DNA from: Gracilariopsis chorda
Taxonomy: Eukaryota; Rhodophyta; Florideophyceae; Gracilariales; Gracilariaceae
DNA: 64,000 bases
Direction of reading: 5' to 3'
Assembly (NCBI GenBank): GCA_003194525.1
Contig: NBIV01000098.1
Location: 186,001-250,000, forward strand
This document shows positions 2,549 to 9,150 of this stretch, one piece after another. The notes under the pieces are model-generated. The model was not told where the DNA came from, made no database searches, and saw only the letters and a program-made list of their open reading frames with translations. Both the position numbers and the translations under genes were made by a program. Numbering within the stretch: position 1 is the first letter of the stretch; the number at the start of each line of letters is the position of its first letter.

Positions 2549-3091
2549 ATGGAGGACCGCGGAAGGGGACGTCGCGCGGCGGATACGGTGTTGCATCCAA
2601 CGCTTTCCGACGCTTTCGAGGGGCTGGAATACTCTGTACACGTGCCGGCGGCGAGCGTACGTCGGGAGTTGAAGACGGTGTTCCCCGGGACGGACGTGGG
2701 GCAAATACTGGTGGTGCCGACTGTGCAGCAGGCTCGGTGCTCGCTGCTAAGCTGGGGCGAGGAGCAGGCGGAGGAGAAGGACCGGCTGTTGGAGCGGTTT
2801 GTGAGGTGGTGCGAGGCGGTGAAGAAGGCGGTGTTGAAGCGCGAGACGGCGTGGATCGACGCGGTGGACCCGGCGTCCGGCGTGGCGCTGTGGGGAGGCG
2901 CGGCCGGCGTGTATAACGAGGTGGACGGTTTTGCGCGCACGCTCGGGTACGACGTGCAGCTTGTGGGGTCGTGCCCGATTCTGGAGCACCCCGCGTGGCG
3001 CTTCCGCTCGTACCCCGCGACGCTATTCTGCGCCGCGCGCCGAAATACGCTGTTGCACGCGCTGGCGGAGGTGAATGGCGCCACTTCGTGA
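2549..3091 (+). CDS. MMADHC (CblD)-like cobalamin trafficking protein
   Basis: 180 residues from the ATG at 2549; upstream codons in frame offer only TTG. The C-terminal two thirds resembles the MMADHC family (methylmalonic aciduria and homocystinuria type D protein), with the pattern ETAWIDAVDP near the middle followed by VYNEVDGFARTLGYDV and an HPAWRFRSYPATLF segment. In animals MMADHC works with MMACHC to hand processed cobalamin to cytosolic methionine synthase and mitochondrial mutase. Algal homologues fit use of external vitamin B12. The protein is shorter than the animal form (about 296 residues) and lacks its long N-terminal part. It lies 175 bases upstream of the PPase fusion on the same strand. 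Family assignment is by motif memory, not search. Confidence 0.75.
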   Translation: MEDRGRGRRAADTVLHPTLSDAFEGLEYSVHVPAASVRRELKTVFPGTDVGQILVVPTVQQARCSLLSWGEEQAEEKDRLLERFVRWCEAVKKAVLKRETAWIDAVDPASGVALWGGAAGVYNEVDGFARTLGYDVQLVGSCPILEHPAWRFRSYPATLFCAARRNTLLHALAEVNGATS

Positions 3092-3266: not shown

Positions 3267-5215
3267 ATGACCCACGCTACAGACCCTGAGCAGCCCCATC
3301 CAGACGCCCAGTACAGTCTTATTCGAGTCGAGGACCCCTCCGATAAGGACAACTCCGACTTCAAGTACTACTTTAACAAGGATGCGCACGGCGTCATCAA
3401 CCCCTTGCATGACATCCCCCTCTACGCAGATAAGGACAATGGTATCCTCAACTTCATCTGTGAGATCCCCCGATGGACCAACGCCAAGCTGGAACTGCAT
3501 ACCAAGAGTCCGCTCGCCCCCATCGTGCAGGACACCAAGAAGGGTAAGAAACGATTCGTGCACAACGTGTATCCGTACAAGGGATACATCTGGAACTACG
3601 GCTGCTTCCCGCAAACCTGGGAAGATCCTACTCAGGTCCACATGGAAACCGGCGCCCTGGGCGACGGAGACCCGCTCGATGTCTGCGAAATCGGAAGCAA
3701 GGCTTGTCGAATTGGTGAGGTTATGCAGGTGAAGGTTTTGGGAGTGCTTGGCATGATTGATGAGGGCGAAATGGATTGGAAGATTATTGTTGTCAATGTT
3801 GATGACCCTATTGCTCATGACCTTCACGATGTTGACGATCTCTACCGCGTCTTTCCGGGCTTGTTGCATGCTACCTTTTCCTGGTTCCGCACCTACAAGA
3901 TTCCGGACGGTAAGGCGCTCAACTTGTTTGCCTTCCGCGAACAGGTGCAGAGTGCCCCTTATGCCAGGGAGGTCATTGAAGAGTGTCATCACAGTTGGAG
4001 CAAACTGCTTTCTGCACAACTGGCGCACAACAACATCAACTGCCTTAATACCACCTTGAAGCAGTCCAACTTTTACACCTCGGTCGACAAAGCGCGCCAA
4101 GTCGTCGATCAGGCTATCAAGGACATGGAGGCCAATGCAGATGACCAACTGGACAACTCCATTGGCCGATCCAACTCTTGGCTGGACATGACTGTCATTC
4201 CGCCCCCGCACTTTGAGGAGAACGGCGCGTCAAACGTCAAGCCCATGTTGACCATCAAGAGGTTTTGCACCGAGTTGCAACGCAAGTTCCCGCACGGATC
4301 CAACGATCTCAGTCTGCTCATCACCGAGCTAGGCGTCGCCTTCAAGTGCGTTCGTGCGCAGCTTTGTGACGCGCCGAATGCCAGTTTTTCGTCACTCGCC
4401 GCATTTGCAAACTCTCAGATTCACGCCTCGCTCGCTTCGTCGGGTCTTTGCTGTCTTATCTTCAGTTCCATCTCCAATCAACCTATGGCGTTGGAGGCCG
4501 GCACGGATGTTGGCAATTACATCGTCGTGTATAACCCGCTGTGCGGCGTTCCTGGCGCGTCCATGGGCTCCATCTTTTCGGTGTATTACCGCAAATCGGC
4601 GCCTGGAAAGGAGGGAGACACTGCTGATTTGTTGCAGCGACCAGGCTTTGAACAGGTTGCGGCTGGCTATTGTATGTACGGCTCTTCTACGTACCTCACG
4701 TTCAGTATGGGGTATGGGGTGCATATCTTTACTCTGGATACGGTGTCAGGACATTTTGTGCTTTCTAAACAGCATGTGCACACGCCGCAATCGGGCGCGC
4801 TGTACTCTGTGGACACCTCTGTGTTGCCGAACGTTGTGGACGGCGTGAAGAAGTACGTGGATGAGCTTGAAAGTGAGGGCAGCGGAAGGAAGTTCAGGCA
4901 TTTGAACAACCTTGTTGCCAACTTTCATAACGTGCTTACGAAGGGGGTATTCTTATGCTGCCGGGTCCGCAGAAAAAGGACCTTGCCAAGTTCCTCTCTG
5001 AAGCTGCGCCGCTTGCGTTTGTGGCGAGGCAGGCGGGTGGTCGCGCTAGTGTGGGTAAGAGAACTCTGCTGGAATTGTCGGCGTGGAGCCTTGAAATGAG
5101 CGTTCCTTTGTTTGTTGGCTCGGCGAAGGACGTGGATCACTTGGAAGAACTTGTTTTGGGACATTCGATTGAAGAGAAGAACAAGGTGGATCCGAGTAAG
5201 AACCTTACGATTTAA
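3267..5215 (+). CDS. Soluble inorganic pyrophosphatase fused to degenerate FBPase domain (frame interrupted)
   Basis: Reads as a ~649-residue protein if a one-base frame break at 4943-4947 is bridged. Residues ~20-310 are a eukaryotic family I pyrophosphatase: CEIPRWTNAKLE (65-76), GKKRFV, the signature DGDPLDV (133-139), DEGEMDWK and YKIPDGK are all intact, so PPi hydrolysis is expected. Residues ~328-640 align along the whole length of fructose-1,6-bisphosphatase: TIKRFC near its start, AAGYCMYGSSTYL, LVANFHNVL, then after the break EAAPLAFVARQAGG. The metal-binding FBPase box DPLDGSSN is here NPLCGVPG (423-430), the acidic pair upstream is lost, and the YSINEG and RYVGS substrate positions are altered (YSVDTS, RHLNN). 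I infer a non-catalytic, perhaps ligand-sensing domain. Start ATG follows a pyrimidine-rich leader; the translocator gene is a near neighbour. Confidence 0.85.
4943..4947 (+). other. One-base frame break in a G run inside the FBPase-like domain
   Basis: The upstream frame reads Thr-Lys-Gly-Val-Phe-Leu and then hits non-homologous sequence, stopping at 5099. The frame one base back reads Thr-Lys-Gly-Gly-Ile-Leu and continues the FBPase homology to a TAA at 5213-5215. One extra G in GGGGG, or a -1 slip of the ribosome on GGG, gives the same joined product. A sequencing or assembly homopolymer error is the simplest explanation. Confidence 0.85.
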
Positions 5216-7672: not shown

Positions 7673-8674
7673 TCAAGTCTCACCGGTACGTTCCTTTTCG
7701 GCTTGCCTCACAAAGTACGGACCAATGGTTGTGACCATGAAGGCCAAGCCGGCGTGCAGCGCGGTGGCACCGTCAAGTGGCGCAGCTATTGTCAAGTCCT
7801 GTTGCGCCAACTGCGCGATCGAAAAGTTGAGGAACGCCATCAGGTACACGGCGCCAGACAGCATGTAGTACAACGACGGCACGCTCATTCCCGACGCAGC
7901 CACGCCCATTCCGGCCACGCCCCACAGCAGCATCGCCACGCCGGTGGCAATGGTGAATTCGGGCAGGGTGCCCACGTTTGGCGGCGACACGAAAAACTGC
8001 CCGTTCGGGAGCTTGCTCTGCACCATGGCGCCGGTGATGATTGTCCACAGCCCCGCAAACGCCATGTTGCCGTTCCAGAACATGGCGCGCATCTTGTTGC
8101 CGGACTGCTGCTTGAGGAAGTCGCGTCCCGTGGCAGCGCTCACCAGGCGCCCAAACAACAGGAACTGGCCGCCCTGCAGCGCGAGGCAGAAGTGGAACGA
8201 AGTGAGAATGCCGAGCGTCACAAAGAACCTGAACTCACCCTGAGTGAAGCCTGGGTTGGGCGGCATCGGCGCGTCACTGGAGGCGCGGAACGCGGGTTGC
8301 ACAAACACAAACACGATGAACACAAACCAGCCCATGGCGGACTGCAGCGCCATGCTCACCTTGGTGACGGAGGTGTTGTACCAGCGCAGCACGAAGGCGG
8401 CGGCTCCCACGAAGAAACCGATCAGTCCGAACGCCACCTCCAGAAGACCGCCGATGAAGAACAGCACCACCGGCGCGTTGTTGGGGTCGCGACGGGTGAT
8501 GCCGACTGACGGGTTGGATTGGGTGAAGCGAATTGCACCTTCGTTGATGACGAGCAAACTCCACAGCGTCAGCAGCGCGGCGGTTTCCATGAAGGCAAGC
8601 GTCTTCTTGTTGAACATCTGCTTGTCGTCGCCCACACCGGCCTCGACATCGTGTTGCTGTTCTGCGGCGTCCAT
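7673..8674 (-). CDS. Unrecognised 8-TM membrane protein, copy 1
   Basis: 333 residues from the ATG at 8674, chosen because this start gives the same short N-terminal tail as the paralogue at 13531-14553; an upstream in-frame extension to 8827 lacks that similarity. About eight hydrophobic segments are visible. Sequence shared with copy 2 includes LLT.WS.LVINEGA.RF, TSFHFCLALQGGQF, K.RAMFWN.N.AFAGLW and AFLNF.I.QL near the last helices. The N-terminus before the first helix is short, acidic and soluble. I do not recognise the family. Conserved polar positions inside the membrane (the NEG of helix 1, HFC and QGG of helix 4) suggest a transporter or enzyme-like membrane role rather than a simple anchor. 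Confidence 0.85.
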   Translation of the reverse strand: MDAAEQQHDVEAGVGDDKQMFNKKTLAFMETAALLTLWSLLVINEGAIRFTQSNPSVGITRRDPNNAPVVLFFIGGLLEVAFGLIGFFVGAAAFVLRWYNTSVTKVSMALQSAMGWFVFIVFVFVQPAFRASSDAPMPPNPGFTQGEFRFFVTLGILTSFHFCLALQGGQFLLFGRLVSAATGRDFLKQQSGNKMRAMFWNGNMAFAGLWTIITGAMVQSKLPNGQFFVSPPNVGTLPEFTIATGVAMLLWGVAGMGVAASGMSVPSLYYMLSGAVYLMAFLNFSIAQLAQQDLTIAAPLDGATALHAGLAFMVTTIGPYFVRQAEKERTGET

Positions 8675-9150
8675 AGTAGAAGAGAGAGAGGATACGACTT
8701 GCAGATTTTCGGGAGTGGGTGGAAAAGGGGGGGAAGAGTGCGATTTAAGTACAGGAAGCGGGGCGGGAAGGTGCGGGCGAAGGTGTAGAAACAGGGAATG
8801 GCGCGAGTTCATTGTATGCGCGCGCACACGTGTGGAAACGGCACGCGCGTGACGCGGCGGAGAAACGCGCCGTCACGCGGTGCGCGCAGCGCGTCTGACG
8901 TTTCGGCGCGCAGCGGCGGCACAGCAAGGCGCGGCCGCCTGCCGCACGCGCGCGCCGTTTCGACGCCGCGTCTTCCGTGCCATTTTCGCTCGTTGCCACC
9001 TCGCTCTCTCGCTCTCGCCGTAACGGCCGCTCCTTTGATGCGCCCGCCGTCGCTGAAAGCCGCGCTTGCATCTCGCCGCCCTCAATTCACACCTCATCAA
9101 CTTCAACAACAACAACTCATCTACCGTGTCGCTAAATCACTCACTCAACG

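Follow-up and report, generated by a model that had tools for sequence, protein, structure and literature searches.

Textbook accounts of eukaryotes usually present the removal of inorganic pyrophosphate (PPi) as housekeeping that is not regulated. The catalytic domain of the CBS-pyrophosphatases (CBS-PPases) belongs to family II. These enzymes are inhibited by AMP and ADP and activated by ATP, according to the excerpted text of PMC11172384. A different pyrophosphatase (PPase) fusion, belonging to sulfate assimilation, is described in the excerpt of PMC2705460. Fructose-1,6-bisphosphatases (FBPases) of Leishmania and human are homotetramers (excerpted text of PMC5639204), and in the Leishmania enzyme the effector loop and helices H1-H3 join in a subunit interface that the loop locks.

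Here we describe a gene of the florideophyte red alga Gracilariopsis chorda in which a family I PPase is joined to a relative of FBPase that has lost its catalytic residues. The initial annotation knew of no described protein of this kind. No paper on a PPase-FBPase fusion was found among the matches listed in the open-licence literature; databases already have names for it: "inorganic pyrophosphatase fused with fructose-1 6-bisphosphatase" is the name of a Gracilaria domingensis protein (P0038), and "fructose-1,6-bisphosphatase/inorganic pyrophosphatase" that of a JGI entry (P0036).

Results

A pyrophosphatase and an FBPase-like domain in one gene

The gene lies on contig C98 of an assembly of 91.3 Mb, within the window (the whole stretch of 64,000 nucleotides of DNA analysed; Table 1). 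It begins at ATG 3267, with no intron in the coding part read. Pfam recognises PF00719 (residues 64-244, 159.3 bits against a gathering score of 23.5) and, in the same frame, PF00316 (residues 329-501, 97.5 bits against 34.8), with PF18913 following in a second frame (50.1 bits against 27); nothing else, and no CBS domain, was found by Pfam in the window protein. The single-frame fusion first proposed for 3267 to 5215 therefore stands for the PPase and the N-terminal part of the FBPase-like domain but not for its end, as the PPase-bearing frame terminates at 5099 and the FBPase C-terminal part, in the other frame, at 5215.

Table 1. Features of the fusion gene; positions refer to the window.
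Feature	Position	Strand	Remark
Open frame, PPase and most of the FBPase-like domain	3267..5099	+	610 aa
Family I inorganic pyrophosphatase domain, PF00719	3456..3998	+	catalytic residues intact
Linker between the halves	4059..4250	+	poorly conserved; 10-71% identity, 14 relatives compared
FBPase-like N-terminal part, PF00316	4251..4769	+	catalytic residues lost
Former AMP effector loop, PHGSNDLSLLI	4290..4322	+	PH[GD][ST][NS][DE]L[SA]LL in 50/50 fusion homologues
Former metal box NPLCGVPG, replacing DPLDGSSN	4533..4556	+	
Conserved segment RKSAPGKEGDTADLLQR	4590..4640	+	pattern in 49/50 fusion homologues
G5 run, site of one-base frame break	4943..4947	+	
FBPase-like C-terminal part (PF18913) and C-terminus, another frame	~4940..5215	+	

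From about position 4946 onward the window frame is out of register with its nearest homologue, P0002, which crosses the break region uninterrupted. A search of the whole genome with P0002 returned the same two pieces, with identities of 91% and 97%; the fusion was not found a second time. Since the tail in the other frame equals P0002 at 88 of 90 residues, we take the one-base break to be an assembly slip or a very recent change. PF18913 is present in 48 of the 50 fusions identified below and absent from the listing for P0027 and P0054. A programmed frameshift at the G run is conceivable and was set aside as unneeded: 17 of the 19 homologues inspected stay in one frame across this region, and the other two, P0049 and P0054, drop homology before the end.

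The neighbourhood of the fusion includes a gene of the triose-phosphate transporter family upstream on the opposite strand (965-2179, minus; PF03151, 340 bits) and, directly upstream, an MMADHC-like open frame (2549-3091, plus; cobalamin trafficking, PF10229) that covers model positions 124-265 of 272. Elsewhere in the window, an open frame of 384 residues with hydrophobic stretches (7673-8827, minus) has no Pfam match at E 0.001.

An intact pyrophosphatase half

Judged by its residues, the PPase half is a full member of the family I inorganic pyrophosphatases. The catalytic positions, which we take in yeast numbering to be E48, K56, E58, R78, Y89, Y93, E101, D115, D117, D120, D147, D152, K154, Y192 and K193, were placed on the homologues by motif; 15 of 15 are kept in the window PPase, and no sequence differs at a position that it covers, coverage being 45 to 51 of 51 sequences per position. 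None of the 60 solved chains listed, of 84 matched, spans both halves, each hitting either the PPase or the FBPase stretch alone. Four database proteins that score above plain PPases (P0050, P0051, P0052 and P0053) were considered as divergent fusions and rejected, each being a tandem double PPase with two PF00719 stretches in one polypeptide.

An FBPase relative without an FBPase active site

Over the 227 columns that precede the frame break, the FBPase-like half is about 33% identical to L001, an FBPase of the alga itself, and P0002 falls below the NCBIfam equivalog cut-off for FBPase (215 against 368 bits). Site positions are given in human FBPase numbering, and all statements about sites rest on the alignment that transfers it. 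We take the metal ligands to be E97, E98, D118 and D121 and the 6-phosphate pocket to be N212, Y215, Y244, Y264 and K274. All four ligands are present in 37 of 37 canonical FBPases; among the 50 fusions, 49 keep none and one keeps a single ligand. D118 has become Asn, Thr or Ser in every fusion, Ser or Thr occupies position 97 in 49 fusions, and the residues at 98, 118 and 121 are variable. Both metal-box aspartates are absent throughout and DPLDG occurs in 0 of 50, so that the conserved DPLDG in relatives by which the initial annotation would have recognised a decaying copy was not encountered among them. The dynamic loop (human 50-72) is 9 residues long instead of 23 in 48 of 50 fusions (14 lost), and the D68 column within it is gapped in 49.

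In the sugar pocket, K274 is replaced by Leu in 48 of the 50 fusions, Y264 by Leu or Met in 46, N212 by Asp in 43 and Y215 by Val in 38, and Y244 is retained in 11; E280 is retained in 42 and R243 in all 50. As the 6-phosphate pocket is mostly lost, together with the dynamic loop and the metal ligands of the box, in all or nearly all of the homologues examined, the domain should not hydrolyse fructose-1,6-bisphosphate (FBP), and ordinary binding of FBP or of fructose-2,6-bisphosphate (F2,6BP) is unlikely. By its Pfam matches this half belongs to the class I FBPase fold family; by its metal ligands, dynamic loop and pocket, it is predicted no longer to be the enzyme. The exchange of DPLDGSSN for NPLCGVPG and the altered substrate-contact positions, both read in the initial annotation, were confirmed residue by residue, and its picture of an intact PPase beside a non-catalytic FBPase relative stands.

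The fusion occurs in red algae and, probably, glaucophytes

When 5.8 billion proteins were searched with the window protein, there were 982 matches, of which 120 were listed. Both PF00719 and PF00316 are found in 50 of these 120 (P0002-P0049, P0054 and P0071), and the join of PPase and FBPase is thus far beyond chance; relatives do have the fusion, whose absence from them would have counted against the initial annotation. Named sources are Agarophyton chilense, Gracilaria domingensis, Porphyridium, Rhodosorus marinus and Galdieria sulphuraria, together with a label of Galdieria phlegrea. Identifiers of the form "tig...", as in P0047, presumably denote Cyanophora paradoxa, and we take P0048 (MMETSP) to be from a glaucophyte; on this naming and their position in the tree, both are probable glaucophytes. 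MMETSP and EukProt labels presumably mark transcriptome or genome sets. Three both-domain matches (P0035, P0039 and P0048) bear labels of transcriptome sets, so one transcript can carry both parts, and the separate transcripts envisaged as a refutation were not encountered. No green plant, animal, fungal or bacterial name stands on any fusion among the 120 listed of 982 matches or among 50 matches to the FBPase-like part of P0047. Of the latter, 13 are known fusions, one is P0207, one (P0242) is a standalone dead FBPase, and in the remaining 35, all FBPases, both aspartates of the box are present. P0207, a Cyanidiococcus gene model of 401 residues, holds the FBPase-like part alone; because it bears linker sequence upstream of the domain and is annotated as an inorganic pyrophosphatase, it is probably a cut gene model.

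The FBPase tree called for by the initial annotation was built from 66 proteins, including 20 of the 50 fusions, 25 of 52 standalone dead FBPases (see below) and 16 of 33 bacterial-type matches. The 20 fusion halves form a single clade (100/99), in which P0047 and P0048 are deepest, P0071, a transcriptome entry, branches between these probable glaucophytes and the red algae (99/76), and the Galdieria or cyanidiophyte-like sequences, Rhodosorus, Porphyridium and the rest follow. The 25 standalone proteins form a separate clade (100/100), and the canonical FBPases, including the G. chorda protein L003, stand apart from both dead families. An origin of the dead domain from the eukaryotic FBPase, put as a grouping of the fusions with the five eukaryotic rows (L001, L002, L003, human and spinach), is not rejected (p-AU 0.53), a placement that is unsafe given the long branches. 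A quick tree of PPases, without bootstrap, places the PPase halves of 19 fusions in a single clade apart from 26 unfused PPases (SH-aLRT 98; P0071, which is without most of the PPase, was omitted), with the same deepest split as the FBPase-half tree. Since each half is one clade with the same deepest split, a single fusion event followed by vertical descent is the simplest reading, and the fusion, by these comparisons, is an old and conserved feature of red algae and probably glaucophytes.

A second family of dead FBPases in red algae

Dead FBPases also occur without a PPase. This standalone family comprises 51 database proteins (P0122-P0172) and L008 of G. chorda, encoded on C225; L007, encoded on C35, is represented by P0122, which is 100% identical to it over 86% of the query. 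Named sources are Gracilariopsis, Agarophyton, Gracilaria, Chondrus, Cyanidium and Cyanidiococcus, and several members are annotated as fructose-bisphosphatase. D118 and E97 are lost in 52 of 52 and E98 in 49 of 52, D121 is kept in 49 of 52, and Y113 is present in all 52 (the fragment P0177 was excluded from this residue table). The effector loop TGELV is conserved, its TGEL strongly. Among the standalone matches listed there is no Galdieria or glaucophyte label, although both lineages have the fusion.

In two cyanidiophyte-type data sets, a fusion and a standalone dead FBPase list the same length for their longest contig (P0046 and P0170, 98852; P0207 and P0177, 1044797), which hints at possible physical linkage of the two genes there.

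Conservation has shifted from the active site toward the former AMP effector pocket

Identity to the window was compared half by half for 14 of the 50 homologues; for the FBPase-like part, the comparison covers the roughly 230 columns that precede the frame break. That part (81-97%) exceeds the PPase (68-94%) in every one of the five closest pairs: 97 against 94% for P0002, 94 against 87% for P0003 (Agarophyton), 87 against 85% for P0009, 88 against 77% for P0022 and 81 against 68% for P0034. In the nine more distant pairs the order is reversed, from 69 against 71% for P0035 to 47 against 60% for P0048. On this evidence the dead FBPase domain is not decaying and is kept by selection.

Column conservation was then computed on 14 representatives, hand-picked for spread, of each of the fusions, the standalone dead FBPases and the canonical FBPases, with AMP-site positions taken from section 3.2 of PMC4822563. 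The AMP-site columns are unusually conserved in the fusions (0.718 against 0.519 for random columns, P=0.014; 8 of 318 circular shifts reach this value), and so they are in the standalone family (0.702 against 0.423, P=0.0014; 6 of 318), whereas in canonical FBPases they are not (0.391 against 0.480, P=0.84; 245 of 318). Another list of AMP-site positions gave, against all columns, 0.774 against 0.519 for the fusions (P 0.002), 0.682 against 0.423 for the standalone family (P 0.002) and 0.389 against 0.480 for canonical FBPases (P 0.86). The active-site columns, which reach 0.943 in canonical FBPases (0 of 318 shifts as high), are below average in the fusions (0.366, P(<=)=0.034) and, at 0.342 against 0.423, not significantly low in the standalone family (P(<=)=0.17). 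Divided more finely, the sugar-pocket columns of the fusions are about average (0.541 against 0.519) and the catalytic columns low (0.318), and in the standalone family the sugar columns are low (0.191) and the catalytic columns average (0.413). In both dead families, then, conservation has moved from catalysis toward the effector pocket, a shift that is cleaner in the fusions and not total.

Among the conserved fusion positions are the pocket-lining Y113, S27, N28 and D29, and the conserved segment listed in Table 1 comes right after the strand that bears AMP-site position 140. Two AMP-site residues are replaced: K112, a contact of the AMP phosphate in the human enzyme, by Asn in 49 of 50 fusions, and R140 by Tyr in 47 of 50. 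Plastid FBPases, which are not known to respond to AMP, are represented here by L002 and the spinach enzyme, and both have Asn at position 112 too. The Leishmania FBPase, with Asp112, still binds AMP, more weakly (excerpted text of PMC5639204), and its effector loop QPPHSRG resembles the FPHGSND of the fusion. Several of the listed AMP contacts are made by the main chain, so that side-chain conservation is only indirect evidence for an AMP site. Despite the replacement of K112 and R140, the conservation pattern favours sensing through the former AMP site.

Genomic setting of PPi metabolism in G. chorda

The genome holds two PF00719 loci, the fusion and L010. The latter has a long N-terminus, basic and serine-rich, that looks like a plastid transit peptide; as L010 thus looks plastid-targeted, the fusion would be the only non-plastid soluble PPase found in the G. 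chorda genome. FBPase relatives comprise the canonical L001 and L002, the DPLDGSSI-type L005 and L006, and the degenerate L003, L007 and L008. Of the phosphofructokinases, L018 and L020 carry GGDGT and L019 carries GGDDS, a motif that we take to mark the PPi-type enzyme. With such a phosphofructokinase alongside, PPi in this alga is probably not only cleared as a by-product but also spent as a currency.

L003 (C27, 937-2262, minus) sits on a long branch among canonical eukaryotic FBPases. Its box reads DPLTGLSD against DPLDGSSN, D121 is replaced by Thr and K274 by Arg, and E97, E98, D118 and most of the pocket are kept.

Discussion

We propose, with a probability of roughly 0.5, that the fusion carries a regulatory pseudo-FBPase that acts on the PPase through the former AMP effector pocket and the oligomer. 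The setting would be a cytosol in which UDP-sugars and starch are made, in algae that also possess a PPi-type phosphofructokinase. The dead FBPase domain would have been retained as a regulatory part, and a nucleotide or other phosphate ligand would bind at the former AMP effector pocket and its subunit interface; binding would shift the FBPase-type oligomer and with it the activity of the attached PPase. Energy status could in this way set the fate of PPi, either hydrolysis that pulls biosynthesis or sparing for PPi-dependent steps. In a bolder extension, which we hold less likely than not, the common ancestor of red algae and glaucophytes would already have had a nucleotide-gated cytosolic PPase with a dead FBPase, its AMP effector pocket by then the chief working site, as energy-charge sensor, with the standalone dead FBPases of red algae sensing or assembling via the same pocket.

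The main rival, somewhat unlikely in our estimation, holds that the domain serves as scaffold only, the PPase assembling with itself, with proteins of the L007/L008 type or with L001, beside the supply of hexose phosphate and without ligand sensing. The homotetrameric state of the Leishmania and human enzymes speaks for it, as does the existence of the second family, with its own conserved effector loop, in red algae. Arginine 243, an inter-subunit contact according to the excerpted text of PMC4822563, is retained in 50 of 50 fusions, and since the effector loop and helices H1-H3 also lie at the subunit interface, conservation of the loop could reflect assembly alone. The conserved positions, however, extend beyond the interface to the pocket-lining residues named above, and Galdieria and the probable glaucophytes have the fusion but no standalone protein labelled as theirs among the matches listed, so a partner may not be required.

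A role of the old active site as sensor, in which FBP or F2,6BP would still bind without being hydrolysed and so control the PPase, is improbable. Such sensing of a sugar phosphate, put forward in the initial annotation, would fit the biology of an alga with a PPi-type phosphofructokinase; R243 and E280 are largely retained, and the about average conservation of the replaced sugar-pocket columns means that the pocket could have a new ligand. Yet the replacement of K274, Y264, N212 and Y215, together with the loss of the box metal ligands, leaves sugar-phosphate sensing in the old site unsupported, and the pooled active-site positions of the fusions are less conserved than random columns.

Lower still we place the acquisition of a different catalytic activity by the dead domain. 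Segments atypical of FBPase, such as RKS..G..GD..D.L.R in 49 of 50 fusions, and the 87 columns conserved in at least 13 of the 14 fusion representatives would be in keeping with it, but no conserved acid replaces the metal ligands, position 97 having settled on Ser or Thr and the other three on nothing constant. A decaying gene or an assembly artefact, in which two genes were brought together by chance and the frame is broken, may be dismissed: the frame break in the window assembly and the lone FBPase-like part of the Cyanidiococcus model P0207 would suit it, and it is contradicted by the 50 homologous fusions, whose several sources include transcriptome sets, by one clade for each half and by high conservation.

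If the regulatory reading is right, the fusion is likely an example of an allosteric site that has outlasted the active site of its enzyme. As the only non-plastid soluble PPase found, in an arrangement kept across red algae and probable glaucophytes, it offers a testable control point between PPi, the synthesis of starch and UDP-sugars, and glycolysis in algae with cytosolic starch. It may also be a character that red algae and glaucophytes share.

Each part of the protein has a familiar counterpart. The PPase half scores 293-306 bits against the solved eukaryotic-type family I PPases 1m38 and 6c45 (yeast PPase), keeps the catalytic residues and differs from family I PPases by about 350 residues of attached FBPase-like protein. 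The FBPase-like half resembles class I FBPases in Pfam family, length and sequence and keeps the effector-loop region and R243, but it is without the metal box, E97, E98 and the K274/Y264 pocket, and its dynamic loop is shortened. With the L007/L008 family it shares the loss of D118 and E97 and the unusually conserved AMP-site positions, whereas that family is without a PPase, mostly keeps D121 and forms a separate clade. The nearest working analogue, by likeness of design, is the CBS-PPase (excerpted text of PMC11172384): the CBS-PPases are microbial and use CBS regulatory domains, of which Pfam finds none in the fusion, but the logic, a PPase with an appended domain under the control of adenine nucleotides, is the one that we propose for the fusion.
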